Below are positions 1,499-28,963 of a stretch of DNA of 39,804 bases, in pieces. The position numbers and the translations under genes were made by a program. Source of the stretch: Verrucomicrobiota bacterium. Its GTDB lineage: Bacteria > Verrucomicrobiota > Verrucomicrobiia > Limisphaerales > VHDF01. The notes under the pieces are model-generated. The model searched no databases, was not told the origin of the DNA, and saw nothing but the letters and a program-made list of their open reading frames with translations. The stretch lies in the NCBI GenBank assembly GCA_016871495.1, contig VHDF01000040.1, positions 1 to 39,804 on the forward strand. The letters are read 5' to 3'. Numbering within the stretch: the stretch's first letter is position 1; each line of letters starts with the position of its first letter.

Positions 1499-1504
1499 CT
1501 TTAG

Positions 1505-1520
1505 AACGGCAATTGCCGTT
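1505..1520. repeat. 16-bp perfect palindrome downstream of the DUF2339-like gene
   Basis: AACGGCAATTGCCGTT is a perfect palindrome six bases after the stop codon at 1498. Its half-site AACGGCAATT recurs at 1602 at the left end of module B of repeat R1. It may be a remnant end of the element or a protein-binding or hairpin-forming site. Confidence 0.5.
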
Positions 1521-1530
1521 TTCAGGTTTA

Positions 1531-1765: not shown

Positions 1766-1815
1766 GATGAAAGAGATCGGTTCGGAGCCTTCCGCACGGA
1801 AGCCGCGAGGCGAGC

Positions 1816-5911: not shown

Positions 5912-6249
5912 GGTGTTGGGAATAATGTCATGAGCTCTCCGGGCGCGGCCGGTTTCGACCACCCGAGTCGTTCACGTGAGTTAAAAGTTTTTTCGAGTGG
6001 AGGTTCCGCGGGGATGTCGAGCACCGTTGCGGACGAGGGGGCGAACGACTCCAACACGAGGCGGACGACTCGCGACGAGGAGCCGCGAGATCGCCGCGAT
6101 GCCGGAGGTGCGCTGGGGAAGTTACGGGTATGACGAAGGCGGTTCCGATCTGGCAAACGGGCTGGGCGCGGCGGCGGTGACTGAGCTGGTTTCGAGGGCG
6201 TTGGTGCTCGAGACATCGGGAACGGCCCCCGCGGACATGATCGCTAAGG
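5912..6249. other. Gap between the frameshifted secreted gene and the PIN remnant
   Basis: No convincing gene here. Short frames exist, for example ATG at 6130 encoding about 16 residues (MTKAVPIWQTGWARRR) and one overlapping the PIN start. They could be the decayed antitoxin of the following PIN remnant, but nothing identifies them as such. The promoter of the leftward gene must lie here; a short A/T tract at 5982-5994 is the only AT-rich feature. Confidence 0.3.
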
Positions 6250-6540
6250 ATGCTCTGTCCCATCGATACGGACGTTCTGATCGAAGGAGTGAGAGCTGAT
6301 CCAGAGTTCATTTCCTGGCTCGAATCCGTCTCGGAAGTCGCCTCAGAGGATGTGGTGCGAGGCGAATTCCTGCTTGGCGTCCATGCGGTTCCCGACCCAG
6401 CCAAACGCAGGCGTGGGGAGGAGTTTTATGTCGAGCGCATCAATGGCCTGGCATCCTTGGCGAGTGATCCATCCGATTAGGAATCAGCGGCACGGATTGC
6501 CGGGTCGGCATGGTGTCAAGGATGGACCGACGTCGACCCG
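6250..6540 (+). pseudogene. Truncated VapC-like PIN-domain toxin remnant
   Basis: The open frame from 6250 to the TAG at 6478-6480 encodes 76 residues beginning MLCPIDTDVLIEGV, the N-terminal strand of a PIN domain with its first acidic residue. EDVVRGEFLLGV supplies the second conserved acid. VapC ribonucleases are normally about 130 residues. Reading through the TAG in the same frame gives ESAARIAG, which resembles the helix normally following at this point, and then low-quality sequence. The third and fourth acidic residues of the active site are not present in a recognisable form. I therefore read it as a decayed toxin with a nonsense codon. The end given is approximate. No intact antitoxin is visible upstream. 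Identification rests on the N-terminal motif only. Confidence 0.55.
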
Positions 6541-6669
6541 TTGAGCGGCACATCGGCTTCCCCCTGCTCCAGCCCTCCAGCCATTCCGCCGATTTTCAAC
6601 TTGAGCGAGGGAATCGAGTTTGGCTTAATCCCGCTCCCTGGCGCGGTCGCGACTGCGCTGGAATTGGTC

Positions 6670-6755
6670 GGTAGGATACCCAAGTGGCCAACGGGGGCAG
6701 ACTGTAAATCTGCTGGCTTACGCCTACGCTGGTTCGAATCCAGCTCCTACCACCA
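6670..6755 (+). tRNA. tRNA-Tyr (anticodon GTA)
   Basis: A class II tRNA with a long variable arm. The acceptor stem GGTAGGA (6670-6676) pairs with TCCTACC (6745-6751), followed by discriminator A and an encoded CCA (6753-6755). The anticodon loop CTGTAAA presents GTA, for tyrosine. The T arm contains GGTTCGAATCC. Length is 83 bases plus CCA. No integrase or duplicated attachment core is seen next to it. Confidence 0.96.
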
Positions 6756-6800
6756 CCCCGCACACCATCATTTTCCATGGATTTGCCAGTCCATCCCCCA

Positions 6801-7226
6801 ATGAGCGATTCCATTTATCCCCGCAGTCCTCGTGAAACCATGGCAGGCTGGGTTCATTTGCCGCGATACATCGACAAGATTCGGCTTCATTTGGCAGGCA
6901 AATTGCATCCTGACTATCAACCCAACTTTGGGCGCGGATTCGACGGATGGTGGCTGGAAGCCGCCGACGTGAAGGCGGAAACGTTGATCGAAGTGGTGAG
7001 GCGGAGTGTGACCGACGGTGAGGTTTGCGACTGGGTGTTGAAAAACGTGAGGGCCGATGCCGCCGCCAAGACAGCGCACTTGCACCGCATGTTGGATTAT
7101 CCGAAAGCCGACGATGCTTCCGGGCAGGAGCGTTTGTGCAAACGAAAGGCGGATGCAGGAATGGCCCATCGCGACGACATCCGCTGCTTCGTGGATTTCA
7201 TCGACGCGGACGAGAAACGGATTTAA
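6801..7226 (+). CDS. DUF5069 domain-containing protein
   Basis: The N-terminal block PRSPRETMAGWVHLPRYIDK, followed by IRLHLAGKLHPDY, is the hallmark of DUF5069, a small bacterial family of unknown function common in Verrucomicrobia and Planctomycetes. From the ATG at 6801 the protein has 141 residues, typical for the family. An in-frame ATG at 6777 would add eight residues (MDLPVHPP) and lies only 22 bases from the tRNA 3' end, so I prefer 6801. No membrane segments or catalytic motifs are evident. The gene stands alone between tRNA-Tyr and a structured intergenic region. Confidence 0.82.
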   Translation: MSDSIYPRSPRETMAGWVHLPRYIDKIRLHLAGKLHPDYQPNFGRGFDGWWLEAADVKAETLIEVVRRSVTDGEVCDWVLKNVRADAAAKTAHLHRMLDYPKADDASGQERLCKRKADAGMAHRDDIRCFVDFIDADEKRI

Positions 7227-13559: not shown

Positions 13560-15056
13560 TTAAAGCACACCCAATTTGAGCGCGTGGTGAATGCGTCCCA
13601 GGAGGAATTCGGGGAAGAATCCCAGGACGAAAAGGACGACAACGACGAAAAGGACTGTGAGTCGCGCGCAGAGCGGGATTTCCAGCGGCGGCATATCCTC
13701 GCGAGTTGGCGCGGCAACGTAAGCCTGCTTGAGGACGAGCAGGTAGTAGTAGAGGGAGACACAACTCATCGCGATGGCGATGCTCACCAGCCACATCCAG
13801 CCCAATGGCTTCACCGCCGCAACGGCCGCGAAGAGATAAAACTTGCCAAAGAATCCCGCCAACGGCGGCACACCAGCCAGGGAAAGCAGCAACGCCATCA
13901 GACTGAACGCCAACACGGGTGAGCGTTTGGAAAGGCCGGTGAAAGCGTCGAAGCGGTCGTGCCCCGCCGCGTTCTCCACAAAACTCACGACGCCGAAGGC
14001 GCCGATCGAGGAGAATCCGTAGACGAGGCTGTAGAACACCACACTGGCGGCGCCTTGCTCGCCTTGCGCGAGGATTCCCAGCAATAAATATCCGCCATGC
14101 GAAACGGCCGAAAAAGCCAGCAGACGGCGCACGCTTGATTGTCCCAGGGCGGCGATGTTTCCCATCACCATCGACAGAGCGGCGACTCCGGCGAGGAGGG
14201 GCATCCAGCCCGAAACGAAATGACCCCAGGATCCGTCCCCGGCCGCTCCGGCCAGGCCAGAACCCATGAACTTGAGCATCAGCCAGAAACTGGCCACTTT
14301 GGATCCGGAAGCGATCAACGCGGCGGAAGCCGCGGGTGCGCCTTGATAAACATCGGGGGCCCACCAGTGGAACGGAACCACGGCGACCTTAAATCCGAAC
14401 CCTGCCACCACCATGGCCACGGCCACCCAGACCAAGGGATCGGGACTTCCGGCGGCAAGCTTGGCTCCCAGCGCTTTGAGGGTCATTTCTCCCGTGGCGC
14501 CATAGAGAAGACTGAAACCGTAAAGCAGGAAGGCCGCCGCGACGCCGCCGAACAGGAAGTATTTCAAACCGGCCTCGGTCGATTCGCGCTGGCCTTTGTT
14601 CAAGGCGGTGAGGATGTAGAGCGAGAGGCTCGCCAGTTCGACGCTCGCAAAAATCATGAGCAGATGCTCCGCGCTGGCCATGCACAGCATGCCCACCAAG
14701 GCGAGGGCGAGCACGGCGAAGTACTCACCGGCGTGTTCGGACCAATCGCCGGGCGCCATGAGGCAGGCCGAAAGCAGTCCCATCACGATCAAGCCTTGCT
14801 TCACGACAAGGCCCGTGGCGCCCAAGGACCACATGCCGCCCGGCGCGATGCCGGCGAACGGCCAGAGAAAAGTGGTGAGCAAAGCCAAAGCGCCGCCGGA
14901 AAGAAACGCCGCCAGCAGCACGCGGCGCCGGCGCGTGTCCTCCAGTTCGCGTGCCCAGACCAAATCGAGGAAGAGCACAAGCAACGACGTGGCGGTGAGG
15001 GCCAATTCCGGCAGGCAAGCCTTCGCGAGATCGAGATAGGCGGCGGAGTTCACCAT
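13560..15056 (-). CDS. nuoN: NADH-quinone oxidoreductase subunit N
   Basis: A 498-residue, ~14-helix antiporter-like subunit of the membrane arm of complex I. Key residues of the proton channel are present: Glu140 in the TM5 segment FASVELASLSLYIL, Lys223 in FKVAVVPFHWWAPDVYQG (TM7), Lys253 in the TM8 region, and a lysine in GFFGKFYLF (TM12). PFHWWAPDVYQG is specific for NuoN rather than L or M. It is the last gene of the operon; its ATG overlaps the end of the second nuoM by seven bases. Repeat R1 module A follows the stop directly. Confidence 0.95.
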   Translation of the reverse strand: MVNSAAYLDLAKACLPELALTATSLLVLFLDLVWARELEDTRRRRVLLAAFLSGGALALLTTFLWPFAGIAPGGMWSLGATGLVVKQGLIVMGLLSACLMAPGDWSEHAGEYFAVLALALVGMLCMASAEHLLMIFASVELASLSLYILTALNKGQRESTEAGLKYFLFGGVAAAFLLYGFSLLYGATGEMTLKALGAKLAAGSPDPLVWVAVAMVVAGFGFKVAVVPFHWWAPDVYQGAPAASAALIASGSKVASFWLMLKFMGSGLAGAAGDGSWGHFVSGWMPLLAGVAALSMVMGNIAALGQSSVRRLLAFSAVSHGGYLLLGILAQGEQGAASVVFYSLVYGFSSIGAFGVVSFVENAAGHDRFDAFTGLSKRSPVLAFSLMALLLSLAGVPPLAGFFGKFYLFAAVAAVKPLGWMWLVSIAIAMSCVSLYYYLLVLKQAYVAAPTREDMPPLEIPLCARLTVLFVVVVLFVLGFFPEFLLGRIHHALKLGVL

Positions 15057-16555
15057 CCCACCACCTTCCTGAGCCCGGCGAAAAACGCGCCGTCAAACGC
15101 CGATTGGATCCAGATCATCATCCAGGCGGGGTACAAACCGATCGCGATGCTGATCGCGAGCAAACTCACGGCGCCAAGCTTTTCAGCGCAACTGATCGGT
15201 TCCCACGGATCGTGAGGAGCCGCGCTTTCGGTTGTGCCAGGGGCGAGGACGCCCGCATCGGCTGCGAAGAACGCTCGCTGCATGGCGCGCAGCGTGTAGG
15301 CGGCGCCGACGACGATGCCGAGGCCCGCCGCGATGGCCATCCACGGAAAGCGTTTCCAAGCGCCCATGAGAACTTGCAGCTCGGCGACGAATCCGCTGAA
15401 GCCGGGCAGCCCCATGGAAGCGCAACCGGCGAGCACGAACGTGGCTGCCGCGAAAGGAAGTTCGCGCCCGAGGTTCAACTGTTTCAGCTCGTCGAGGTTT
15501 CGTGTGTGCGCCCGGTCATAAACCATGCGCCCGACCACGCCGAAGAGAAGTCCCGCGAGGATGCCGTGTGAAAACATCTGCAAAACCGCGCCGACCAATC
15601 CGGCGATGTTCATGCTGGCGAGTCCGAGCAGAACGAAGCCCATGTGGCTGACGCTGGAATAGCCGATGACGAACTTGAAATCCGATTGGGCGAGGGCGAC
15701 GAGAGCGCCCAGGACAATGCCGGCCACCGCCAGCCATCCGATGGATTCGTGCCAGATTTTGAGTCCTTGCGGGAACAAAGCCATGGAGACGCGCAACGCG
15801 CCGTAGGCCCCAAGCTTCATGACCACGCCCGCGAGCAGCATGGACGCCGCGGTGGGCGCCGCGACGTGACCGGTGGGCGCCCAGGTATGGAACGGCCACA
15901 GACCCGCCAGAATGGCGAAGCCGACGAAGGACACTGGAAACGCCCAGCGCTGGAAATCGGCGCTGAATCCGACCTTGGCCAGTTCCGGCAGGCTGAAGGT
16001 TTGGCTTCCCGACAGCACGTAGGCGGCCACCATCACCGCGAGCACCAGCGCGCTGCCGACGAAGGAATACAGGGCCAGTTTCATGGCGCCAAACTCGCGG
16101 TTGGTGGAGCCCCAAATGGCGATCAGGAAGTATTTGGGGATGATGGCGATCTCGTAAAAGACGAAGAGTTGGAACAGATCGAAGCTGAGGAAAACCCCGT
16201 GCACCCCGCCGATCAGCGCCAGGTAAAAGGCAAAGAATTCGCGCGGGCGCTTCTCGACGTTCCAGGAAAAGAGGATGCCGGCAACGGAGGCAATGCCTGT
16301 GAGCAGGACGAGGGTGAGGCTGATGCCATCGTAAGCGAGGTGGAAGTCGATCCCAAGCGAAGGGATCCACGCCCATTTCTGGATCGTGATCAATTCGCCG
16401 GCGGGCTTGAACTTCACCGCTTCCAGGAGGGCGATGCCAAGTCCCGTGAGCGAGCTGGCGAGGGCAACGCCACGTGCCCAGCGCGCGCCCGGCACGGGCA
16501 CGAACATGAGCACGAGCACTCCGAGGAACGCGCTATAGAGGGTCCAAGCCAGCAT
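15050..16555 (-). CDS. nuoM: Second NADH-quinone oxidoreductase subunit M (NuoM2), atypical
   Basis: From ATG 16555 the protein has 501 residues and the NuoM fold. Glu135 (FYEIAIIPKYFL) is the TM5 glutamate, Lys247 (GVVMKLGAYG) the TM8 lysine, and GFVAELQV carries the TM12 glutamate. However, the TM7 motif that should read like FAVKVPMFPFH reads FAILAGLWPFHTW: the conserved channel lysine is Leu216. In TM5, the position six after Glu135, normally Met, is Lys141. The gene is a paralogue, not a copy, of the upstream nuoM and probably represents a fourth proton pump. The frame is open to 16633 and a GTG at 16609 is an alternative start; ATG 16555 begins directly at the first membrane helix and clears the preceding stop at 16585. 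Confidence 0.9.
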   Translation of the reverse strand: MLAWTLYSAFLGVLVLMFVPVPGARWARGVALASSLTGLGIALLEAVKFKPAGELITIQKWAWIPSLGIDFHLAYDGISLTLVLLTGIASVAGILFSWNVEKRPREFFAFYLALIGGVHGVFLSFDLFQLFVFYEIAIIPKYFLIAIWGSTNREFGAMKLALYSFVGSALVLAVMVAAYVLSGSQTFSLPELAKVGFSADFQRWAFPVSFVGFAILAGLWPFHTWAPTGHVAAPTAASMLLAGVVMKLGAYGALRVSMALFPQGLKIWHESIGWLAVAGIVLGALVALAQSDFKFVIGYSSVSHMGFVLLGLASMNIAGLVGAVLQMFSHGILAGLLFGVVGRMVYDRAHTRNLDELKQLNLGRELPFAAATFVLAGCASMGLPGFSGFVAELQVLMGAWKRFPWMAIAAGLGIVVGAAYTLRAMQRAFFAADAGVLAPGTTESAAPHDPWEPISCAEKLGAVSLLAISIAIGLYPAWMMIWIQSAFDGAFFAGLRKVVGW

Positions 16556-16584
16556 GAGGAATTGGTGGGTCGATCGGATGAATT

Positions 16585-18147
16585 TCAGAATCTCAACCAA
16601 CCCACCCACTGCGTCACGGTCGCGTGGGTCCAATGCACAATGGCCTGAGGCCAGACGCCCAGCCCGAGCGTCAGCAACGTGGCCGGTGTCACCAACAACT
16701 TTTCTCCCAGCGTCAGGTCAGGCCAGTGGGTCCACCGTTCCGGAAGCGGACCCCAAAAAACCTTCTGCATGATGCCGAGCAGGAAAATGGCGGTCACGAG
16801 CAGGCCGAGTGTGGCCACGGCGGTAGGGGCCCAGGCGAGGGCGTAAGCGCCTTTGAAAATCAGGAATTCCCCCGCAAAACCGTTCAATCCCGGCAGTCCC
16901 AGCGACGCGAACATGGAGAGCCCCATCAGCCCGCAGAAGACGGGCGCCGCCGCCCTCAGGCCTCCGAATTCGTTCAGCCCGCGAAGTCCGCCGCTGCGCT
17001 GTTCCAGAAAACCCAGGAAACAGAACAAGGCGGAGGCGGTGATGCCGTGATTGAACATCTGCAATAAAACGCCGTTCAAAGCCGCCGCCTTTTCCGCGCT
17101 CCACAGTCCGCCGGTTTCCGTGACCTTCATGGCCGCGAACACCCCGAGCAGACAGTAGCCAAGGTGATTGACCGACGAGTAGGCCAGGGTGCGTTTGAGG
17201 TCCTTCTGGCCTAACGCGGCGAAAGCCGAGAGCACGATGGTGGCCACCGCCAGCCAGAGAAGAAGGTCCAGGGCCTCCCTCATTTGCTCCGGAAAGACAG
17301 GCAGGATCAGGCGCAGCAAACCATACACCCCGAGCTTTGACATCGCGCCCGTCAGAATCATGGTCACGCCGCTGGGAGCCTCGCTGTAGGCCGAGGGCAG
17401 CCAGCTGTGGAAAGGGAACATCGGCACTTTCACCGCGAATCCGAGCAACGCCATCCAGAAGACGCACTGCGCTAAGCCTTCCTGGGTCTTGAACGTTTCA
17501 AACCAGGCCAGGCGCACGGACAGCGCTGAAGCCAGTTCTCCAGAGCGCCCCTTCTCCGCCCATTCCAGAAAATTGAAAGTGCCCGTGGCGACAGACACCG
17601 CCAGAAATGCGAGCAGCATGGAAACACTGCCGGCCATGGCATAAACGAAGAACTGAAACGACGCCGGACCCCTCCCCTCCCCTCCCCAAAACTTGATCAG
17701 GAAATAAGCGGGGACCAAGCTGAGCTCCCAAAAGAGGAACCAGTGGAAAAAATCAAGGGCGGTAAAGGCTCCGAACAAGCCGGCCTCGAGCCAAAGGATC
17801 AACGCGAACATCAAAGGAACGCGGCGCGTCTCGTGACGGCAGACTGCCATCGCGAAGGGCACGACCAACGCGGTCAACCCGATCATGACCAAGCCCAGGC
17901 CGTCCAAACCCAGGTGATAATCCACCTTGATGGAAGGAATCCACGGCCACTTTTCGACAAACTGCATCTCCGCCTGGGCCGAATCAAATCGCCCGCCAAT
18001 CCAAGCGACCCATCCGGCGCATAGTCCGGCGGCCAGAAAAGCCAATCCCTTTGCTGCCTTGGCGGCGCGCGCGGGCAGGAAGGCCACGACCAAGCCTGCC
18101 ACCAGCGGGATGAAAATGAGGGCCGAGAGGGAACCGAAGGTGTTCAT
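16585..18147 (-). CDS. nuoM: NADH-quinone oxidoreductase subunit M (NuoM1), canonical
   Basis: 520 residues with the complete NuoM proton-channel signature: Glu141 (FWELSLVPAYFLI, TM5), Lys240 (FAVKVPMFPFHSWLP, TM7), Lys271 (AMSKLGVYGLLR, TM8) and the TM12 glutamate in GFAGEFLIFKG. It is an antiporter-like pump in the membrane arm of complex I. The ATG at 18147 overlaps the nuoL stop as ATGA, so the longer frame (to 18207) is rejected. The next gene downstream is a second, divergent nuoM, making L-M-M-N. Confidence 0.95.
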   Translation of the reverse strand: MNTFGSLSALIFIPLVAGLVVAFLPARAAKAAKGLAFLAAGLCAGWVAWIGGRFDSAQAEMQFVEKWPWIPSIKVDYHLGLDGLGLVMIGLTALVVPFAMAVCRHETRRVPLMFALILWLEAGLFGAFTALDFFHWFLFWELSLVPAYFLIKFWGGEGRGPASFQFFVYAMAGSVSMLLAFLAVSVATGTFNFLEWAEKGRSGELASALSVRLAWFETFKTQEGLAQCVFWMALLGFAVKVPMFPFHSWLPSAYSEAPSGVTMILTGAMSKLGVYGLLRLILPVFPEQMREALDLLLWLAVATIVLSAFAALGQKDLKRTLAYSSVNHLGYCLLGVFAAMKVTETGGLWSAEKAAALNGVLLQMFNHGITASALFCFLGFLEQRSGGLRGLNEFGGLRAAAPVFCGLMGLSMFASLGLPGLNGFAGEFLIFKGAYALAWAPTAVATLGLLVTAIFLLGIMQKVFWGPLPERWTHWPDLTLGEKLLVTPATLLTLGLGVWPQAIVHWTHATVTQWVGWLRF

Positions 18148-20219
18148 CGAGGTCCTCCTCCCCACGCCAGGATGACGATCAGGAACACAAGGGTCAGTCC
18201 CAGCCACCGCAAGTAGCGCTGGGTGTCACCGTTTTGAAGGGCGCCCGCCCCCAGGCCCAATCGCTTCACGCCCTCGCACGCCTTCTCGAAGCCGAAATTG
18301 ACGAATCCCTCGTCCGCCTGCTTTCCGATCCACGCCAGCAATCGCGTCAGCCCGCCGGTCAGACGGACCAATCCGCCCACGACCCAAACCTCCATCCACG
18401 CGGCCAACCCGGCCAGGGCGCGTTGCCAGGCGATGACGGTGGCTTCGTAGAGTTCATCGACAAAGAATCGACCGCGCATGGCTTTGAAGAGCCGGGGCCA
18501 GCGAGCTTCGAGAGGGTCGGTCGCGGTCTCGTGGAGGTCAGCCGCGCTGTAAAGTTTCCAACCCGCTCCGAATCCCGCCGCGACCAAAATCGCCGACAGC
18601 ACGATCAGACCGAGGGTGGCTCCGTGGAACAGCGCTCCAAAATCCAACTGCAATGGCTTGCCTTCGAGGAAAGAGGCGAACCATGGCCAGGCGGGCGTTC
18701 CCAATCCACTGAGAAGCAGGGCTCCGGCGGCGAGCAACACGAGAGGCACTGTCATGACCGCGGGGCTCTCATGCGGGGAGTGAACGGCGTGTGGCGCTTG
18801 ATCCCCGGAGCCGTGGCCGGAAGCGAAAGCGCCCCGAGGGTGTCCCGCGAACACATGCAACATCTGGCGTGTCATGTAAAACGCGGTGAGCAAGGCGCCC
18901 GCGATGCCGAGGACTAATGGCCCCTTGGATGCAGGCCAACTGAGCGCCGCGTGCAGGATTTCGTCCTTGCTCCAGAATCCCGAGAAAAAGATCGGCACGC
19001 CGCTGAGCGCCATCATTCCGATGGCGTAGGTGGCGAACGTCACCGGCATGAAGGCTCTCAATCCGCCCATTCGCCGAATGTCTTGTTCACCGCCACAGCC
19101 ATGAATGACCGATCCCGCGCCCAGGAAGAGCAACGCCTTGAAGAAGGCATGAGTGATGAGGTGGAACATGCCCACGGCCACGCCGCCCGCGCCCACCCCC
19201 ATGAACATGTAACCGAGCTGCGACACGGTCGAATAGGCGAGAATCCGTTTGATGTCGTTTTGGCCCACGGCGATGAGCGCCGCGAACACGGCGGTGATGG
19301 CGCCCACCCAGGTCACCACTTGCAGTGCCGTGGTCACGGAGGAAGGTCCGGCGGGCGTGGCAGCCAGGAGCGGATGCGCGCGCGCGATGAGGAATACTCC
19401 GGCCGCAACCATGGTCGCGGCATGGATCAGCGCGCTGACCGGAGTGGGGCCTTCCATCGCGTCCGGCAGCCAGACATGCAGAGGGACCTGGCCCGACTTT
19501 CCGACGGCCCCGCAGAAGAGCAGCAACCCGATGGCCGCGTTCAAGGTGAGTCCGCCGAGGGTGGTTTGAGCCGCCAAGGCCTCGAGCGCTCCCGCCTCGA
19601 GGCAGCCCTTGCCGTTATCGTAGCAGAGCAGGGTTCCGGTTTCGGCCTGCAGCCAGACCAATCCCAGGAAAAATCCCACGTCGCCGATGCGGGTGGTGAT
19701 GAACGCCTTCTTGGCGGCCGCCGCGGCGCTGGGCTTTTGAAACCAGAATCCGATCAGAAGATAGGACGCCAGCCCGACGACTTCCCAGCACATGAAGAGA
19801 AGGAGCAGGCTGTTCGAGATGACAAGCCCGAGCATCGCGGCGGCGAAGAGGGAGAGGAAACAAAAGAACCGCGCCGCGTTGTCGTCATGCGCCATGTAGC
19901 CCGAGCTGAAAATAAAGATCAGACAGCCCACGAACGTGATCATCACCAGCATGACCGCGGTCATGGGGTCCACGAGCAATCCCAGCTTGAGCGTGGCGCC
20001 GCCCATCGAGATCCAGTCGAAATTCCAATAGTCTCGAGGAACTCCGTTCGTGTTGGACTTGGACAGCAACAGATACAATTCCCGGCAGGATAGGAGGAAG
20101 CCGATCGCCATGGATCCGATGGCGAGAGCGCTGCTGAGCCGCCTGGCATTCCTCGGCAGCAGCGAGGCCAGACCTGCGGCGAGCAGGGGCAGGAGAGGGA
20201 TGAGGGCGAGGGTCGTCAT
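18144..20219 (-). CDS. nuoL: NADH-quinone oxidoreductase subunit L with extended lateral helix
   Basis: 691 residues against about 610 in E. coli. Pump residues are present: Glu146 (CWEVVGLASYLL), Lys241 (GAVGKSGQVPLHVWLPDAMEG), His266 and Lys418 (GFWSKDEIL). Residues about 585-665 form the C-terminal amphipathic region that in complex I becomes the long lateral helix HL. Between DELY (588-591) and the YLRW before the last membrane helix there are 77 residues, against about 44 in E. coli NuoL as I remember it, an excess of roughly 33. That matches the pattern described for complex I cassettes carrying a fourth pump subunit. A His-rich loop (about 468-486) separates late helices. ATGA overlaps exist on both sides, with nuoK and nuoM. 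Confidence 0.95.
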   Translation of the reverse strand: MTTLALIPLLPLLAAGLASLLPRNARRLSSALAIGSMAIGFLLSCRELYLLLSKSNTNGVPRDYWNFDWISMGGATLKLGLLVDPMTAVMLVMITFVGCLIFIFSSGYMAHDDNAARFFCFLSLFAAAMLGLVISNSLLLLFMCWEVVGLASYLLIGFWFQKPSAAAAAKKAFITTRIGDVGFFLGLVWLQAETGTLLCYDNGKGCLEAGALEALAAQTTLGGLTLNAAIGLLLFCGAVGKSGQVPLHVWLPDAMEGPTPVSALIHAATMVAAGVFLIARAHPLLAATPAGPSSVTTALQVVTWVGAITAVFAALIAVGQNDIKRILAYSTVSQLGYMFMGVGAGGVAVGMFHLITHAFFKALLFLGAGSVIHGCGGEQDIRRMGGLRAFMPVTFATYAIGMMALSGVPIFFSGFWSKDEILHAALSWPASKGPLVLGIAGALLTAFYMTRQMLHVFAGHPRGAFASGHGSGDQAPHAVHSPHESPAVMTVPLVLLAAGALLLSGLGTPAWPWFASFLEGKPLQLDFGALFHGATLGLIVLSAILVAAGFGAGWKLYSAADLHETATDPLEARWPRLFKAMRGRFFVDELYEATVIAWQRALAGLAAWMEVWVVGGLVRLTGGLTRLLAWIGKQADEGFVNFGFEKACEGVKRLGLGAGALQNGDTQRYLRWLGLTLVFLIVILAWGGGPR

Positions 20220-20527
20220 CCGCGCAGGTTTCGCACCTGTTCCAGTTGCGTGGTTTTGAACCGGCGGTGCAGGTGGATGATCAAGGCCAGGCCCACGGCT
20301 GCTTCCGCCGCCGCGATCGCCAGCGAAAACAGCACCATCAAGGGACCGTCGAGGGAAGCGGGGTTTTGATGAAACCGCCAGAACGCGATAAAATTGAGAT
20401 TGGCCGCGTTCAACATCAGTTCGATGCCGATCAGCACCATGATCGCGTTGCGGCGCGCCAGCGCTCCCGCGAGTCCCACCGAGAACAGGAGGGCTGAAAG
20501 CAGCAAGTAGTGGGACAAGGCCGTCAT
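20216..20527 (-). CDS. nuoK: NADH-quinone oxidoreductase subunit K
   Basis: 103 residues, three membrane helices, the usual NuoK size. The central glutamates are visible in MVLIGIELMLNAANLN (TM2) and in AIAAAEAAVGLALI (TM3), which take part in the membrane-arm proton path. RRNAIMVLIGIELMLNA is the family hallmark. Start and stop overlap nuoJ and nuoL by four bases each (ATGA), so translation is coupled. Confidence 0.96.
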   Translation of the reverse strand: MTALSHYLLLSALLFSVGLAGALARRNAIMVLIGIELMLNAANLNFIAFWRFHQNPASLDGPLMVLFSLAIAAAEAAVGLALIIHLHRRFKTTQLEQVRNLRG

Positions 20528-21045
20528 GGATTGGGACGGGGGTCGCCGGGGTTTTTGGGCCGGTCGTGCAGGGCCAAAACGGCCGCGCCGATCATGGCGG
20601 AAGTGAGCAGCAACGCGATCAGTTCGAGCGGGAGGACGTGGGTGGTCATCAAGGATTGCCCCAAGGCCGCAACGGGAAGCTCGCGTGGTCCCGGATCCGC
20701 CGCCTTGCCGACGGTGCTGGCGGAGAACGACGCGGCCAGAACCAGGAATACCATGGAGGCGATGCCGAGTCCGTGAGCCCAGGCTTTGTTGCCGCGAGGC
20801 TCCGCCTGCGTCTCACTGCTCTTCGTCAGGAGCATGGCGAATACCACGAGCACTGAGATCGCGCCCACATAGACCAGCATTTGGGAAAACGCGATGAATT
20901 GGGCGTCCAGTTGGAGATAAATCACCGCCAACCCGATCAACGTTCCCACCAGGCAAAGCGCGCAATGAATCAAGTTCCGCAGCGTCATGGCGGCGATGGC
21001 CAGGACGGCGGTCCAAAGCGCGGTGATCACGAAGGTGAGGCTCAT
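20524..21045 (-). CDS. nuoJ: NADH-quinone oxidoreductase subunit J
   Basis: 173 residues with five predicted membrane helices. The TM3 segment LVYVGAISVLVVFAMLL contains the conserved YVGAI(S/M)VLVVF motif, where the helix with a pi-bulge lies in complex I. The ATG at 21045 overlaps the nuoH stop as ATGA. The open frame extends upstream to 21177, but those 44 residues are Arg/Pro-rich and lie inside nuoH, so they are rejected. The gene overlaps nuoK by four bases. Confidence 0.95.
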   Translation of the reverse strand: MSLTFVITALWTAVLAIAAMTLRNLIHCALCLVGTLIGLAVIYLQLDAQFIAFSQMLVYVGAISVLVVFAMLLTKSSETQAEPRGNKAWAHGLGIASMVFLVLAASFSASTVGKAADPGPRELPVAALGQSLMTTHVLPLELIALLLTSAMIGAAVLALHDRPKNPGDPRPNP

Positions 21046-22214
21046 TCGACCCAGCGGTAGGTTCGGGGCGCCCAGCGCGCCCGCGCGGCCAGGCCCTGGC
21101 CCAGCAGGAAGTAGGGGGCCACGACCAGAGTGGCGGACACCAGCCAGCGCAGAGGGCCGGATCCGAGGTGATGCCAAAGGCCGGCGTTGACGATGTTGAT
21201 CAAGGAAAGGGGAAGCATGAGTTTCCAGGCAAAATTCATCAATTGATCAATCCGCAGCCGGGGAACGGTGCCGCGCACCCAGATGAAAAACAGCATCAGC
21301 ACCGTCAATTTGGCGAAGAACCACATCCAGGATGGAATCCACGCCAGGAACGACACCGGCGCCGTCCACCCCCCGAGGAAAAGCGTGATGGCCAGCGAGG
21401 TCATGGCGAAAAGTCCGAGATACTCGCCGAGGAAAAACAAAGCGAACTTGAATCCACTGTACTCGATCAAATGGCCCGCGACGATTTCGGATTCGCCTTC
21501 GGGAATGTCGAACGGGGAGCGGTTTGCCTCCGCCATGCCGGCGATGAGAAACAGCCAGAAGGCGGCGAAGCCCCACGGGGTGAACACATGCCATTGCGCC
21601 AGCCCGAAGGAATAGGCGTTTTGAGCTTCCACGATCTTCGAGGGCGACAACGTGCCGGTGAGCATCAGCACCGGGATCGTGGAAAGAATGAGCGGCAGTT
21701 CGTAGCTGATCATTTGCGCCAGCGCGCGCATCGCGCCCAACAACGCGTACTTGTTCCGGCTCGCCCAGCCGGCCATGAACACGGCCAACTCGGCGCCCGC
21801 CCCCACCGCGAAGAAATAAAGGACTCCCGCATCCAGATCCAGAGCGGTCATGTTGCGGCCGACCGGGATCACCGCCAGCGCGAGAATGGCCGGGATCACC
21901 ATCACCACCGGCGCGAGGGTGTAGACGAGGCGGTCCGCGGCTCGGGGCACCACGTTCTCCTTGAACACGGCTTTCAGCCCGTCCGCGGCGGGTTGGAGAA
22001 TGCCGAACGGGCCGACACGGTTCGGTCCCGGACGATTCTGGATGCGTCCGAGCAGTTTTCGCTCGACGAGCGTAGTGAGCGCAAACAAACCGGCAAAAGC
22101 CCCAACCAGCGGTCCAATGGATAACAGGATCGACGCCCAGCCGCGCAACGCGGCGGGAAGCACGCCCAGCGCGCTGTGCTTCAGGGTGACCCAAATTTGA
22201 TCCAACGCTTCCAT
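21042..22214 (-). CDS. nuoH: NADH-quinone oxidoreductase subunit H
   Basis: 390 residues with eight or more membrane helices. Signatures are ERKLLGRIQNRPGPNRVGPFG near the N-terminus, RALAQMISYELPL in the middle, and AEANRSPFDIPEGESEIVAG, the loop lining the quinone chamber. NuoH joins the peripheral arm to the membrane arm. The start lies three bases after the nuoI stop. Here nuoI precedes nuoH, a reversal of the common H-I order. Confidence 0.96.
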   Translation of the reverse strand: MEALDQIWVTLKHSALGVLPAALRGWASILLSIGPLVGAFAGLFALTTLVERKLLGRIQNRPGPNRVGPFGILQPAADGLKAVFKENVVPRAADRLVYTLAPVVMVIPAILALAVIPVGRNMTALDLDAGVLYFFAVGAGAELAVFMAGWASRNKYALLGAMRALAQMISYELPLILSTIPVLMLTGTLSPSKIVEAQNAYSFGLAQWHVFTPWGFAAFWLFLIAGMAEANRSPFDIPEGESEIVAGHLIEYSGFKFALFFLGEYLGLFAMTSLAITLFLGGWTAPVSFLAWIPSWMWFFAKLTVLMLFFIWVRGTVPRLRIDQLMNFAWKLMLPLSLINIVNAGLWHHLGSGPLRWLVSATLVVAPYFLLGQGLAARARWAPRTYRWVE

Positions 22215-22217
22215 CGG

Positions 22218-22967
22218 TCAGGGCTTGGGGGCGTCCGGGGCGGCCGGTGTCGGCGGTCTGGACGGAACCGAGGGTTGAGCCTGAGGCTTGGCGGCAGGAG
22301 CCGCGGCGGGTGGCGCGGGTGGCGGAACATCCGAAGGCTTGGCGGCGGGAACCGCGGTCGCGGCTGGCGCGGCGGCGGCGGCTTTCGCTTTGGCTTCCGC
22401 TGCTTTCGCCTTGGCCTCGGCATCCGCTTTGGCTTTGGCCTCCGCCTTCACCTTGTCCTCCGCAAGTTTGCGGTCCACCTCGGCGGCTTCTGCGGGGTGG
22501 ATCTTATTGTAATGGGCGTTGGATTTTGCGAGGTCGGTCTTGTGGAGGAGGAGTCCCTCGAATCGATCGGAGCGGCTCCATTCGAAGTCCTGGTCCATCT
22601 TGATGGCCTCGAACGGGCAAACTTCCACGCAAATCTGGCAGCTCATGCAGACCGAGATGTCGATGTCGAAAATCTTGGGCTGGAACTGGAGCTTGCCGAT
22701 GTAGTCCGGTTTTTTGACGGTGTCCTTGACGATGTAAATGCACTGGGGCGGACATTCCTTCTCGCAGATCTGGCAGGCGACGCAGCGCAGGCCGAGCATC
22801 GGGTCGTCACCGTCATGGACCAGAAACGGGAACTGACGCGCGTTTTCCTTCATGGGAAGGCGCTGTTCCGGATATTCCACGGTCACGAAGCGATCCGGGT
22901 CGGTGTAACTGCCGACGAGGTTGCGTGCCGTTTCGACCATGCCTTTGACGATGCCGGTTCCTAGCAT
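22218..22967 (-). CDS. nuoI: NADH-quinone oxidoreductase subunit I with Ala/Lys/Pro-rich tail
   Basis: 249 residues. The core carries two 4Fe-4S motifs, Cys62-65-68-72 (CVACQICEKECP) and Cys107-110-113-117 (CMSCQICVEVCP), which bind the clusters N6a and N6b that pass electrons toward NuoB. Typical NuoI proteins have about 160-180 residues and end near the position of residue 165 here. The remaining 85 residues are a Lys/Ala/Glu-rich helix-like stretch (about 165-200) followed by a Pro/Ala-rich disordered tail. The tail may bind another protein or be dispensable; nothing in the sequence decides this. Confidence 0.95.
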   Translation of the reverse strand: MLGTGIVKGMVETARNLVGSYTDPDRFVTVEYPEQRLPMKENARQFPFLVHDGDDPMLGLRCVACQICEKECPPQCIYIVKDTVKKPDYIGKLQFQPKIFDIDISVCMSCQICVEVCPFEAIKMDQDFEWSRSDRFEGLLLHKTDLAKSNAHYNKIHPAEAAEVDRKLAEDKVKAEAKAKADAEAKAKAAEAKAKAAAAAPAATAVPAAKPSDVPPPAPPAAAPAAKPQAQPSVPSRPPTPAAPDAPKP

Positions 22968-22989
22968 AGGTCCTCGCTTTCCAGACGCT

Positions 22990-24168
22990 TCATCGATCCA
23001 CTTCCCCGAGCACGATGTCCACGCTGCCCAAGATCACCACGACATCGGCGATGGTATGGCCCAGGCACATGTCCTCGAGGATGGTCAGGTTGATGAGGCT
23101 GGGCGGGCGAACGCGATAACGGTAGGGATTGGCCGAGCCGTCGCTGATGAGATAAAAACCGAGCTCGCCCTTCGGCGCCTCGATGCGTCCATAAGCCTCG
23201 CCCGCCTTGGGTTTGAAGGCGCGAAGTTTCGCCTTCGGATCGACAATCGGGCCGCCCGGGAGCTCTTGGATGGCCTGTTTGAGGATCTTGATCGATTCGC
23301 CCATTTCCAGCAGCCGGATCATGAGGCGGTCATACACGTCGCCCTGCGCGCCCAGAGGCACGCGGAATGGGAACCGCCCGTAAATTCCGTATGGATCCGT
23401 TTTGCGAAGGTCATAATCGACGCCCGAGGCGCGCAGCATGGGCCCCGTGATGCTGGCGTTGACCGCCAGGGCGGCGGGCAGGATGCCGACGCCTTGCGTG
23501 CGGGCCATGAGAATCTCGTTCCCGGTCAGCAACCGCTCGAACTCTTCAAGGAATCGGGGATAGCCATCGACCACCCGAGCCGCTTGTTCGATCCAGCCCG
23601 GGGGCAGGTCCACCCGGCAACCGCCGAAACGCATGTAGTTGCACATCATGCGCGCGCCGGTGAGGGCTTCGAACAGGTCGAGAATTTTCTCCCGCTCGCG
23701 GAAGGCGTACATGAGCGGAGTGCCGAGGGCGCCCATGTCCTGCGCCAGGAAACCGAGCAGGCAAGTGTGATTCAGGAGCCGGGTCAATTCCGCGGTGATG
23801 ATGCGGATGTATTCGGCGCGCTCGGGCACGTTCAAGCCGGCCAGTTTTTCCACCGCCAGCGCGTAAGCCCAGTTGTTCGTGATCGAGCAGAAATAGTCGA
23901 GCCGGTCGGTGTAAGGCATCGACCCCAAATAGGTCGTGGCTTCCGCGATTTTTTCGTGGTTGCGATGGAGATAGCCGAACACCGGCTTCAGTTTGACGAT
24001 GCGTTCCCCGTCCAGCACCACGTCCATGCGAAACACGCCATGGGTGGACGGATGCTGCGGTCCCATGGAAACCTCCAGAAACTCGTTCCCAAGCCCGGAA
24101 TCATCGTGAGCGCGGGGCGAAAGTCGCGCGCGGGTGTCGGCGGGCACCGTGGGAGAATGGACACTCAC
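22990..24168 (-). CDS. nuoD: NADH-quinone oxidoreductase subunit D
   Basis: 392 residues, the 49-kDa subunit of the peripheral arm that forms the quinone-binding site with NuoB. Motifs include [15 protein letters not shown] near residue 35, [26 protein letters not shown] and the C-terminal [21 protein letters not shown]. The quinone-site histidine lies in GPQHPSTHG. The ATG at 24168 overlaps the nuoC stop as ATGA. C and D are separate genes, not fused as in E. coli. Confidence 0.96.
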
Positions 24169-24815
24169 GCGGTGCCTCCCTGAGTGCCCCCGTCGGCGGG
24201 ATAATGCGCTTTGGCCTTTTCGAGCACCTCATCGTGGGGCGTGGGTTCGTATTCGTAGTCGTCGGGCTCGACGAAATCCTTGCGCATCGGATGATGCCGG
24301 TAACCCTCCCACATGAGCAGCCGCCGCAAGTCCGGATGTCCGTCGAAGACAATGCCGTAAAGGTCGTAAATCTCCCTCTCTTGAAACTCGGCACCCCTCC
24401 ACACCGGGGTCAGGGATGGGAGATGCACTCCTTGCATTCGATCCGCCGTGCGAACGCGCAGGATCACGGGGCCTTGCTTCAAGGCCATGGAATAAAGGTG
24501 ATAGACCGCCTCAAGGCAACCCGGCTTGCGTTCTTCGAGGGTCTCCTCGACCTCTTGTTCCACACCGTTGATCTGCTTCTTCACTTTGACCTTCTGCTTG
24601 GTCACCGTGTCGGGCCAATCCACTCCCGTCGCGTTCGAGGCGTAATCGAGCCGCAGTCGGGGATCGTCACGCAGGAATTCGGCCACTTCCCGGGCTTTCT
24701 CGCGTCCCACCCGCAAAGAACGCTGCTGGCAGGGGGCATCGTTCGGCACGATCTCGACCGCGGCTCCGGTGACGGAGGCTTCGACGCGAGCCTTGATCTC
24801 TTCCAGCGATTCCAT
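24165..24815 (-). CDS. nuoC: NADH-quinone oxidoreductase subunit C
   Basis: 216 residues. The family signature is the C-terminal [23 protein letters not shown], followed by [17 protein letters not shown] Lys/Glu-rich insertion ([21 protein letters not shown], about residues 75-97) lengthens the N-terminal domain compared with many homologues. A TTG at 24830 would add five residues; the ATG at 24815 is preferred because it is a standard start and begins the first helix ([10 protein letters not shown]). It overlaps nuoD by four bases. Confidence 0.94.
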
Positions 24816-24837
24816 GCGGGAGCCGTGCAAATGAAAC

Positions 24838-25455
24838 TCAATCCTCCCGGACCATGGTGGGCGGACGCCACACCTCGGGATTGCTCGGGGGAGTCAGGTC
24901 GTCCGGTCCGCAGACCGGAATCGGGAATTCACTCGGGGCGTTGGGGTCCAAATGGCGGGGGCGACCGGGGCCCGTGAAGGTCTCTTTCGAGATTTTCTCT
25001 TGAAGGGTGATGAGCGCGTGAAGCAGCGCCTCGGGACGGGGCGGGCACCCGGGGATGTGCACATCCACGGGGATGAAGCGGTCAATGCCTTTCAAGACGT
25101 TGTATCCCTGCTTGAAGGGGCCTCCGGAGATCGCGCAGGCGCCCATGGCGATGACATATTTCGGTTCGGACATCTGATTGTAGAGTCGAACCACTTGGGG
25201 GGCCATTTTCTTGGTCACCGTGCCGGCGACAATCATCAGATCCGATTGCCGTGGGGAATTGCGAAAGACCTCCGAACCGAAGCGGGAGAGATCGAAGCGG
25301 GCCATGGCGGTGGCGATCATTTCAATCGCGCAGCAGGCTAGGCCGAACTGCATGGGCCAAAGGGAATTCTTGCGGCCCCAGTTGTAGAGGTCCTGGAACC
25401 CGGTGACAACCACCCCTTGCTTGCTGAGCTCGTTGCGAAGTCCCTCGTCGATCAT
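24838..25455 (-). CDS. nuoB: NADH-quinone oxidoreductase subunit B
   Basis: 205 residues. The ligands of the terminal N2 4Fe-4S cluster are visible: tandem Cys41-Cys42 (GLACCAIEM), Cys107 (MGACAISGG) and Cys137 ([10 protein letters not shown]). NuoB delivers electrons to quinone. The C-terminal 45 residues ([19 protein letters not shown] and beyond) form a longer tail than in E. coli. The gap to nuoA is 24 bases. Confidence 0.96.
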
Positions 25456-25479
25456 GCGATGCTGGTGCCGGTCCGGAAT

Positions 25480-25857
25480 CTATTTCCAGGCCAGCAACCC
25501 CTTTCTCCATGCCCAGACCAGTCCTTCAACCAACAGCAACAGAAAGAAAAGCATGGCGGCAAACGCGCCCAGAGGAAGTCCTTTGAAGGCGGCGGCGAAA
25601 GGCAGCAGAAAAAGAGTCTCCACGTCGAAAACCAGGAAAATCAAAGCGTAAAGGTAATACTCGGAACGAAACTGCACCCAGGCGTCTCCCTTCGACTCCA
25701 GGCCGCATTCGTAGATGGCATTTTTGTGCGGACCCGGTTTGGCGGGGCACATGAACTTCGCCCACGACCAGGCCGCCAAGAGGGGGCCGATCGGGAAGAG
25801 GATCGCAACCAACAGCAGGACGGCCAGAAATTCGTTGGTAGAATAGGAACCTGTCAT
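25480..25857 (-). CDS. nuoA: NADH-quinone oxidoreductase subunit A
   Basis: 125 residues, three membrane helices. Family signatures are KNAIYECGLESKGDAWVQFR and YYLYALIFLVFDVETLFLLP. The loop with the conserved Cys (YECGLE) contacts the quinone site. First gene of the operon. The ATG at 25857 is preferred over a GTG six bases upstream. An upstream gene in the same direction ends 112 bp away, so the nuo promoter probably lies in 25858-25969; I could not identify it. Confidence 0.95.
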   Translation of the reverse strand: MTGSYSTNEFLAVLLLVAILFPIGPLLAAWSWAKFMCPAKPGPHKNAIYECGLESKGDAWVQFRSEYYLYALIFLVFDVETLFLLPFAAAFKGLPLGAFAAMLFFLLLLVEGLVWAWRKGLLAWK

Positions 25858-26581: not shown

Positions 26582-28963
26582 ATGAGCCGCCCGCTTTCAA
26601 CGTTGGCCCAGCGATGCGCTTGGGGGATCGCATGGGGCGGCCTGGTTTTGGCGGGGATTCTTTTTTGGCGGTCACACACTCCCCAAAATGGCTCGGCGTC
26701 CATTGGCCCGAAGCAGTCCGATCCTGCGGCGAGGGGTGCCGTCACGCCGGAGTTCGCCAGGCAACTGGAGCAACTCGAAGCGCGCGAGCGGCACTTCGAC
26801 GAAACGCTCTGGAAACCCGAACTCGTCGCCCAGCAGCACGGCCAGGTCATCGAAGCGTTTTGGGACTCGGTCAACCGATCCACGAACAAGCTGGCCGCCT
26901 TGGCCCGCCTGGAGTTCGCGACCCTCGACATGCCGGTCTTCCATCCGCCCCGGGCGGCTCCGCACTCCATTCAGCTCCATTTTCCCTCGGGAAAGCCGCG
27001 GACCATTGGTGTGGAGCAATGGCCTGCGTTTCTGGAACGCTGGCGGATCGAGGGCTGGGCTTTGCTGCAGGTCGAGTTCAGGCATCTTCGGTTTAGGCCG
27101 GAAACCGAAGCGGCTCCAGCGTCGAGCGAGTTCTATTTTTCGGCCCACTTGGTTCATGGAAGCGGGATGGCACGGGCGAGCTTGGAAGGTCCGCTTCGGC
27201 TCGCGTGGGCCAAGTCGGGTTCCAGCTCCCCGGCTCCGGGGATCCAGAACATCGATGCGTCACGCTTGTCACTGGCGACGCGCCAGGGGCCGGCGGCTTT
27301 TCAGCTCCATTGGCAGGACCGGCTGGCCCCGCCGAGGAACGCGTATTCGATCGATCCCCTGCTCGTGTTCGACTTGGACGAGGATGGATATTCCGAAATT
27401 ATGCTGGCGAATTTGAACCTTGTTTATCGACGGCAAGCCGATGGCGGTTACCTTGGAGGTTCTTTATGCGCGCACGCTCCTGGGCTCATGGCTTGTGCCT
27501 TGCTGGGCGGATTCAACGGTGACGCGTTCGTGGATTTGCTGGTTTTGGGCGATCGCGGCCTGATGTTGTATTCCGGCGATGGATCGCCCCGGTTTGACCA
27601 GCCTCCCCGCCTCGTGTGGCCGGCCCCGGCCGAACTCAAACACGCGATGGCGATGACGAGCGGAGACGTGGATAGCGACGGCGACGCGGATCTTTTCATC
27701 GCCCAGTATCGTGTGCCTTACGAGGAAGGCTCCATGCCCACACCCTTTGACGACGCCAATGACGGACACCCCTCGTTCCTGCTGATCAACGAGGGGGCCG
27801 GGAGCTTTCGCGAAGCCACGGTCTCCGCGGGATTGGGCGCCAGGAGGTTTCGACGAACCTACAGTGCCTCTTTCACCGATCTGGACGGCGACCGGGATTT
27901 GGACTTGGCCGTGATCAGTGACTTTGCCGGACTGGATGTCTTTCGGAATGATGGCCGAGGTCGATTCGAGGACGTGTCCACGCAGTGGTTCGGCGAGCGG
28001 CGCGCGTTTGGGATGGCGCATGCGCTGGCGGATTTCAATGAGGACGGGCGGCTCGACCTGTTCATGATCGGCATGACCTCGCCCACCGCGAGCCGGCTCG
28101 AGGGTTTGGGATTGTGGCGGGAAACCGATCCCCGGCGTCGGGGCGCCCGCGCCGCCATGACGCGTGGGAACCGGCTCTTTTTGTCGTCCCCGGAAATGAT
28201 CTGGAGCGAGACGGCGTTGAGCGATGCCGTCGCGAATTCGGGCTGGTCGTGGGGTTGCGCCGTGTTGGATTTCGACAACGACGGCCATCTTGACGTTTAT
28301 GTGGGCAACGGGCTGGAGAGCCGGGATTCGGTCACGGACTATGAAAGTCAGTATTGGTTGCATGACGCCTACGTGGGGCAATCGCGCGAGGACCCGCTCC
28401 ATTATCTCTATTTCAAATCGGTTTTCACGCGCACGCGAGGGCGGGGCCAATCCTACGGTGGTTACGACAAGAACCGTTTTTTTCTTCGGGACGGAGATCG
28501 CTTCCTCGAGGCCGCGCATCTGCTGGGGCTGGGCTTGGAGAACGACACGCGCAATGTGGTGGCCGAAGACCTGGATCGCGACGGGCGCGTCGATGTGGTC
28601 CTGACCTGTTTCGAGCCGTGGCCGGATTCCCGCCAAAGCGTGCGGATTTACCTCAATCGCCTGGAGACACCGGGGCGCCGGTGGGTCGGCTTCCAACTCG
28701 AAGGAGAGGCCGCCGCCCCGGGCGTGCGAGTCGAGTTGATGGATTCGCAAGGGGGCGGACTTCAAATGCGCGAGTGGGTGAATGGCGATTCTTATCGATC
28801 CCAACACTCTCAGAAACTGCATTTCGGATTAGGCCCCTCCAACGTCGTGGAGAACGTGCGACTGCGCTGGATCGGCGGCGCGACGAGCGAACTTCACTTT
28901 CGCGATTTGGGAAAATATCATCCGGTCTCGATCGCGCCCCGGTCGTCCGGCCCCAAGCCTTGA
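26582..28963 (+). CDS. VCBS/FG-GAP repeat protein with C-terminal ASPIC/UnbV domain (CRTAC-like)
   Basis: 793 residues. An N-terminal hydrophobic anchor (about residues 11-28, CAWGIAWGGLVLAGILFW) implies export. Residues about 255-680 contain Ca-binding-type repeats: LDEDGYSEIML, DVDSDGDADLFI, DLDGDRDLDLAVI, DFNEDGRLDLFMI, DFDNDGHLDVYVG and DLDRDGRVDVVLT, forming a beta-propeller. The C-terminus (GVRVELMDSQGGGLQMREW, then HSQKLHFGLG and VRLRWIGGATSEL) is the ASPIC/UnbV domain found in CRTAC1-like proteins. An additional N-terminal region (40-250) is not recognised. Predicted extracytoplasmic, role unknown. The start ATG is at 26582. R1 module A begins two bases after the stop. Confidence 0.88.
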   Translation: MSRPLSTLAQRCAWGIAWGGLVLAGILFWRSHTPQNGSASIGPKQSDPAARGAVTPEFARQLEQLEARERHFDETLWKPELVAQQHGQVIEAFWDSVNRSTNKLAALARLEFATLDMPVFHPPRAAPHSIQLHFPSGKPRTIGVEQWPAFLERWRIEGWALLQVEFRHLRFRPETEAAPASSEFYFSAHLVHGSGMARASLEGPLRLAWAKSGSSSPAPGIQNIDASRLSLATRQGPAAFQLHWQDRLAPPRNAYSIDPLLVFDLDEDGYSEIMLANLNLVYRRQADGGYLGGSLCAHAPGLMACALLGGFNGDAFVDLLVLGDRGLMLYSGDGSPRFDQPPRLVWPAPAELKHAMAMTSGDVDSDGDADLFIAQYRVPYEEGSMPTPFDDANDGHPSFLLINEGAGSFREATVSAGLGARRFRRTYSASFTDLDGDRDLDLAVISDFAGLDVFRNDGRGRFEDVSTQWFGERRAFGMAHALADFNEDGRLDLFMIGMTSPTASRLEGLGLWRETDPRRRGARAAMTRGNRLFLSSPEMIWSETALSDAVANSGWSWGCAVLDFDNDGHLDVYVGNGLESRDSVTDYESQYWLHDAYVGQSREDPLHYLYFKSVFTRTRGRGQSYGGYDKNRFFLRDGDRFLEAAHLLGLGLENDTRNVVAEDLDRDGRVDVVLTCFEPWPDSRQSVRIYLNRLETPGRRWVGFQLEGEAAAPGVRVELMDSQGGGLQMREWVNGDSYRSQHSQKLHFGLGPSNVVENVRLRWIGGATSELHFRDLGKYHPVSIAPRSSGPKP

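Follow-up and report, generated by a model that had tools for sequence, protein, structure and literature searches.

Whether two nuoM genes in a single operon give complex I a fourth antiporter-like subunit, and how such an enzyme would be supplied with electrons, are questions raised by contig VHDF01000040.1 of a Verrucomicrobiota bacterium (assembly GCA_016871495.1). The window, i.e. the whole stretch of DNA analysed here (39,804 nucleotides), is this entire contig (C40 of a 201-contig, 5.06 Mb genome). It carries the operon nuoA-B-C-D-I-H-J-K-L-M1-M2-N on the minus strand, from 25857 down to 13560, with all twelve genes present; the core subunits A, B, C, D, H, I, J, K, L, M and N (11/11) are thus encoded, together with a second M. 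The assignment of this operon to 2M complex I, a kind already known, in a form of Verrucomicrobiota and Acidobacteriota that is free of the module for reduced nicotinamide adenine dinucleotide (NADH), is well supported by its sequence. We consider it fairly probable that the operon encodes a 12-subunit enzyme of this kind, which would be fed by ferredoxin, would hold four antiporter-like subunits in its arm and would export more than four protons per two electrons. An earlier note on this DNA had already read the gene order, two full-length NuoM-type proteins of different sequence, a fourth antiporter-like subunit and a Verrucomicrobiota-like genome; all of this was borne out, the nearest named relatives being Verrucomicrobiota. 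The missing nuoE, nuoF and nuoG, none of which is in the window, are a point absent from that note.

The tandem NuoM pair and the NuoL lateral helix

The gene adjoining nuoL, nuoM1 (16585-18147; 520 amino acids), and its neighbour nuoM2 (15050-16555; 501 amino acids) score 447 and 431 bits against TIGR01972 (cut-off 263.8). They stand between nuoL (18144-20219; 691 amino acids; TIGR01974, 591 bits, cut-off 407.5), whose lateral helix is lengthened, and nuoN (13560-15056; TIGR01770, 357 bits, cut-off 332.6). The predicted models match solved NuoM chains: 481 residues of each were aligned to the E. coli chain 3rko_C, which we take to be NuoM, with Z 51.4 and 1.5 Å for M1 (predicted local distance difference test, pLDDT, 91.8; predicted template modelling score, pTM, 0.92) and Z 49.6 and 1.9 Å for M2 (pLDDT 87.6; pTM 0.90).

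When named genomes were scanned with the M1 alignment, at least 566 related stretches emerged, of which the best 80 were analysed. These 80 loci belong to Verrucomicrobiota (41) and Acidobacteriota (35), two others being labelled Pseudomonadota and two having no phylum; several locus titles are those of metagenome bins and are possibly mislabelled. Both M1 and M2 are found in 75 of the 80 loci, where they are always adjacent. The order L-M1-M2-N, as in the window, occurs in 63/80 and the complete A-N set in 30/80, the incomplete loci being cut by contig ends or having broken frames. Because M1 and M2 recur in 75/80 related loci, the fourth pump gene is, on this sequence comparison, not a product of chance. 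With genes ordered by stop-codon position, colinearity holds for 72 of the 80 loci; another 4 consist of two divergent halves, and in the last 4 one additional match resembling C precedes B, which we attribute to a NuoC reference that is too long. In the split cassettes of some relatives (L012, L082, L086, L089, L098), A-B-C-D-I (as far as seen) and H-J-K-L-M1-M2-N occupy opposite strands. Within the window's phylum, tandem NuoM genes that both exceed the cut-off were seen in eight of 144 genomes (by eye: G000, G010, G013, G060, G080, G091, G140, G142). As a side observation, G046:C3 contains antiporter-subunit-like frames with several in-frame TGA codons, two of them with identical scores near the contig's two ends; it is perhaps a circular mitochondrial contig contaminating the bin.

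The best evidence that M1 and M2 stand together in one arm is the insert in the lateral helix of NuoL, which the earlier note had named from known cassettes and which we found in the window. In the alignment, the anchor tyrosines that bracket this helix are 77 residues apart in 83/83 2M NuoL (window included) versus 52 in the genome's own canonical NuoL, an insert of exactly 25 residues in every case. At 1.5 Å per residue, this corresponds to about 37 Å of helix, and a NuoL helix longer by 25 residues would have the length needed to reach across one additional subunit. A motif-based measure of the helix gave 70 residues in 34 of 35 matching 2M NuoL versus 44-46 in 12 canonical loci and in the genome's own NuoL; 48 of the 83 NuoL had no match and one of the 35 gave 131 through a wrong anchor, hence the use of the alignment count. 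According to passages of PMC9040806, the corresponding insert in MrpD2 of Manganitrophaceae has 26 residues, that of Nitrospira 2M NuoL is of similar length, and the insert is interpreted in Nitrospira 2M as spanning the fourth subunit. M1 and M2 might instead be alternatives to each other, each serving its own kind of three-pump complex and never meeting in one arm, for which only their two different lineages (see below) would speak. We regard this as very improbable: the lengthened lateral helix of all 83 2M NuoL would be useless in a three-pump arm, and M1 and M2 are neighbours wherever both were found among the 80 loci.

The two genes are part of one close-packed operon. With the starts chosen here, 4-nucleotide overlaps are present at 5 of the 11 junctions (C/D, as GTGA, then H/J, J/K, K/L and L/M1), M2 and N overlap by 7 nucleotides, and gaps of 3-29 nucleotides separate A/B (24), B/C (22), D/I (22), I/H (3) and M1/M2 (29). 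The claim of ATGA overlaps throughout, made in the earlier note, is thus right only in part; despite the gaps, nuoA-N is a single close-packed operon. The identity of all twelve genes was established by family searches (NCBIfam, Pfam), with C, I and J below the NCBIfam cut-offs. The first gene, nuoA (25480-25857; PF00507, E 2.5e-29), starts with ATG at 25857, with an alternative GTG at 25863; nuoJ (20524-21045) reaches 101 bits against NF005168 (below the cut-off of 154) and nuoK (20216-20527) 110 bits against NF004320 (cut-off 57).

Lineages and charged residues of NuoM1 and NuoM2

In the NuoM tree, M1 forms one clade (support 100/99) and M2 another (100/100), and the two are not sisters. M2 groups with the canonical NuoM of the window's phylum and with two Bacteroidota behind a branch supported at 100/99, while M1 falls opposite that branch, among lysine-bearing NuoM. 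The tree was built from 59 of 237 aligned NuoM (13/87 M1, 13/82 M2, the others thinned likewise) with the trait columns retained; its rows for E. coli and Arthrobacter are long. A recent duplication or an assembly repeat, already discounted by the earlier note, was rejected on the ground that M1 and M2 lie in separate, well-supported clades common to other genomes. The simplest reading of these sequences is that the cassette united two ancient NuoM lineages once, before it spread across two phyla, the sampling being limited to the groups named here. NuoM1 and NuoM2 distances correlate over 68 operons (r 0.93, matched in 0/500 permutations), a weak indication, since linked genes are expected to behave so. 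A literature search of titles, abstract starts and passages, whose coverage did not include the founding 2M paper, found no statement of a two-lineage origin of the M pair. This origin, together with the residue changes described below, may possibly be new.

Residues are numbered as in E. coli NuoM, and gapped cells are excluded from the counts. M1 keeps Glu144 in transmembrane helix (TM) 5, Lys234 in TM7, Lys265 in TM8 and Glu407 in TM12 in 87/87 sequences. The counts for Glu144 and Lys234 are partly forced, both search patterns having contained these residues, and the two are also present in the window and in six genomes recovered by a plain family search. M1 has in addition a lineage-specific Lys/Arg at 155 (87/87) and at 412 (86/87), the latter five residues past the TM12 Glu. 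In M2, the TM7 Lys (K234) is replaced by Leu in 82/82, and the TM5 Glu (82/82), the TM8 Lys (81/81 ungapped) and the TM12 Glu (76/76 ungapped) are retained. Moreover, position 150 in TM5 of M2 is Lys in 82/82 sequences and in 0 of the 155 other NuoM examined, i.e. 87 M1, 16+1 canonical NuoM and 5 of another type from the window's phylum, 9 and 30 from Acidobacteriota and 7 others. M2 is split into two frames in L022 and L024, for which the best piece was taken. The alignment with Paracoccus and E. coli NuoM is gap-free around both the TM5 and the TM7 sites. In the model of M2, the TM5 lysine lies inside a predicted helix, and residues 224-234, just past the first half of TM7, are poorly predicted. 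Judged by its family score and its predicted fold, M2 is a NuoM despite the loss of the TM7 lysine.

In the flanking subunits, the key residues of NuoN (Glu/Lys/Lys/Lys) are kept in all ungapped rows, and those of NuoL in the ungapped rows except for one Ser at the TM5 Glu and one Cys at the TM7 Lys. The TM12 charges along N, M2, M1 and L read Lys-Glu-Glu-Lys, versus Lys-Glu-Lys along canonical N, M and L.

The same Leu at 234 was found in 16/16 canonical NuoM of the window's phylum (L116-L130 and the genome's own on contig C12), in 1/1 of another family and in 2/2 Bacteroidota NuoM (L192, L193), and on the NuoM tree the Lys/Leu state is a single change. As far as seen, each of these NuoM outside the 2M cassettes is the sole NuoM of its operon (L-M-N in 9 of the loci, and likewise in Prevotella). 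The loss of the TM7 lysine was therefore rejected as a mark of 2M alone; to judge from the alignment, the TM5 lysine is the M2-specific feature. The 16 canonical NuoM also have an additional Lys immediately before the TM8 Lys and a His six residues before it. In the titles, abstract starts and passages covered by our literature search, no description of a NuoM without the TM7 lysine was found; the founding 2M paper, outside this coverage, may contain one.

In a passage of PMC7419157, as we read it, the key residues are described as absolutely conserved and essential, the TM7 Lys being paired with the TM5 Glu; the domino and ion-pair models assign the role of switch to the TM5/TM7 pair that every subunit has (passages of PMC10212512, PMC5938582). 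By its sequence M2 departs from this scheme, and whether M2 pumps is a genuine question. M2 might be only a relay or spacer in an arm of four antiporter-like subunits, with the stoichiometry staying at four protons per two electrons, as the Leu at the TM7 lysine position of all M2 would suggest. We find this somewhat unlikely, given that the same Leu recurs in the phylum's canonical NuoM and in two Bacteroidota NuoM, each of them, as far as seen, the only NuoM of its operon, and that M2 keeps its TM5 Glu, TM8 Lys and TM12 Glu and has a Lys in TM5.

A tentative but tenable proposal is that two ancient NuoM lineages, differing in their electrostatics, were combined in the 2M complex I of Verrucomicrobiota and Acidobacteriota, which would thus be a chimera. 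M1 would have the standard TM5-Glu/TM7-Lys pair with extra positive charges in TM5 and TM12, and M2 would have given up the TM7 Lys and have a Lys in TM5. If it is true that M2 and the Leu-234 NuoM of Verrucomicrobiota and Bacteroidota pump, the Lys(TM7)/Glu(TM5) pair would be dispensable in a central pump. It has long been asked by what means redox energy is passed to pumps as far as 200 Å away, and which of the buried charges this requires. Natural variants of this sort, with a lysine-lacking pump beside a standard one and a canonical complex I in the same organism, could serve as tests of the ion-pair and domino models and also bear on how the protons exported per two electrons are related to the number of pump subunits.

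Electron entry and proton stoichiometry

Apart from the membrane arm with its four antiporter-like subunits, the operon encodes the quinone module (B, C, D, I and H). NuoB (24838-25455; PF01058, E 1.3e-29) has the cysteine motifs CC, GAC and PGCP, which we take to be those of cluster N2. The nuoC gene (24165-24815; TIGR01961 NuoC_fam, 107 bits, below the cut-off of 122) is not fused to nuoD; ATG was selected as its start in an open frame that begins with TTG at 24830. NuoD (22990-24168; NF004739, 438 bits, cut-off 360), with a GTG start in the GTGA overlap with nuoC, has the motifs GPQHPSTHG and YLHR, presumably those of the quinone site, the roles of the NuoB, NuoI and NuoD motifs all being assumed from general knowledge. 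NuoI (22218-22967; TIGR01971, 76.5 bits, below the cut-off of 113) has two 4Fe-4S motifs and an Ala/Pro-rich C-terminal tail, and nuoH (21042-22214) reaches 344 bits against NF004741 (cut-off 305).

With the genome's own E, F, G and fused EF as blastp references (E up to 1e-6), none of the 80 related loci, many of which are incomplete, yielded an E-, F- or G-like gene; the 30 complete loci extend past the cassette by 1-2643 bases to the left and 90-7044 to the right. Of the seven antiporter-type subunits found in the genome, four are encoded by the window operon; the other three belong to a canonical complex I operon on contig C12, which includes nuoE, nuoF and nuoG. Because E, F and G are missing from the cassette while the genome has this separate canonical complex I, ferredoxin appears, from gene content, a likelier electron donor than NADH, and NuoI would likely be the electron entry point. 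Ferredoxin has been proposed as a partner for Nitrospira 2M, there in the reverse direction (passages of PMC6606698, PMC12342949). The 2-oxoacid:ferredoxin oxidoreductase family PF01855 is also represented in the genome, by two genes on contigs C31 and C30. No ferredoxin gene was noticed near the operon, where four neighbouring frames were searched against Pfam. These searches gave an FG-GAP/ASPIC-UnbV repeat protein at 26582-28963, adjoining the operon, and a squalene-hopene-cyclase-like protein at 1816-3912, farther from it.

The complex might also borrow NuoEFG from the canonical operon and work as an NADH:quinone oxidoreductase with a longer arm. In line with this, the genome's sole canonical-type NuoF lies in the canonical operon, and at least one further NuoM above the cut-off, beyond the tandem pair, was seen (by eye) in 20/20 genomes checked among those of the 80 loci. 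This option is nevertheless unlikely in our view, considering that no E/F/G-like gene accompanies the cassette in the 80 loci and that the 2M NuoI has a mostly longer, Ala/Pro-rich tail. The tail has a median of 94 residues after the second cluster motif (range 19-135, n=53, two further rows being without the motif), and 131 in the window; the canonical NuoI of this genome has 59 and that of E. coli 70.

A stand-alone fused nuoE-nuoF gene on contig C121 (L011:1068-2741) was considered as the NADH module of the 2M complex and rejected, as, among the matches listed, only G000 of the eight tandem-pair genomes has a close fused form. Some match to it exists in 132/144 genomes of the phylum, mostly to the NuoF half; among the matches listed, only that in G059 is close over nearly the full length (69%), and G001 matches residues 11-549 at 39% with an internal stop codon. 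The fused protein may serve a formate dehydrogenase as its diaphorase. In the search for a separate second NuoG of the 2M complex, molybdopterin-family matches turned up on four contigs other than that of the canonical NuoG, and the one examined is a formate dehydrogenase. On contig C113 (L198:904-3627), a formate-dehydrogenase-like protein has one in-frame TGA (CSRA-U-HSP) at what is presumably the active-site position, and it is perhaps a selenoprotein.

By analogy with Nitrospira, for which this has been proposed (passages of PMC6606698, PMC12342949), the enzyme could run in reverse and spend proton-motive force on the reduction of ferredoxin from quinol. The Nitrospira proposal, however, depends on CO2 fixation by the reductive tricarboxylic acid cycle. 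The cassette studied here is common in Terriglobales and Verrucomicrobiota, and these are mostly heterotrophs, which makes reverse operation a distinctly unlikely alternative.

In the forward, ferredoxin-fed mode that we favour, NuoI would receive electrons from a soluble carrier of low potential, most probably ferredoxin, for transfer to quinone. The arm would be ordered N-M2-M1-L outward from the quinone site. The redox drop to quinone is larger from ferredoxin than from NADH; such a drop could drive a longer pump chain and raise proton export above the usual four per two electrons. M1 would be a fully equipped channel. In M2 the proton path would be altered, the TM5 Glu working with the TM5 Lys and the TM8 Lys in place of the TM7 Lys. 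Several points weigh against this scheme. The passages of the literature that were retrieved contain no biochemistry for a fifth proton or for ferredoxin use by any 2M enzyme. M2, being without the TM7 lysine, is perhaps less than a full pump. The TM5 Lys stands six residues after the Glu and would, in a regular helix, be off the face of the Glu, which leaves a relocated lysine without geometric support. Moreover, the case for ferredoxin as donor is built on absent E, F and G, which the canonical operon could lend.

Comparison with known systems

2M complex I was reportedly described by Chadwick, Hemp, Fischer and Orphan in 2018 (ISME J 12:2668), and the lengthened NuoL lateral helix is said to be one of its marks. 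The window operon resembles it in the extra NuoM between NuoL and NuoN and in the NuoL lateral helix, longer by 25 residues here; the loss of the TM7 lysine and the TM5 lysine of M2 were not met in the retrieved passages of the 2M literature. The 14-subunit NADH:quinone oxidoreductase differs from it in having nuoE, nuoF and nuoG. The complex I operon of Prevotella nigrescens (L193) is similar in being without nuoE/F/G and in having Leu at the NuoM TM7 lysine position, but it has one NuoM, without the TM5 lysine, and its C-annotated gene of 1575 nucleotides is probably a fused CD.

Other enzymes with more than three antiporter-like subunits, as described in passages of PMC9040806, are the green complex I of rhizobia and the five-pump Complex_I_3 of Manganitrophaceae; in these, two MrpD-type subunits replace NuoL, whereas the window encodes one true NuoL (TIGR01974, 591 bits). 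In the Chloroflexi 2M (passages of PMC7117926), the second nuoM also lies between nuoL and nuoN, but nuoBCDI are apart and CD are fused, in contrast to the single operon with separate C and D found here. The Nitrospira 2M (clade 3; passages of PMC6606698, PMC12342949) shares with the window two NuoM, separate C and D and the absence of nuoE/F, but is without nuoH and has an enlarged nuoG, whereas the window has nuoH at 21042-22214 and no nuoG in the cassette. By its description, the second complex I of Acidobacterium capsulatum is likewise similar, with a duplicated nuoM beside a canonical operon (passages of PMC11636273). This species belongs to the phylum of 35 of the 80 related loci, and its operon with the duplicated nuoM is reported in the same source to be transcribed.

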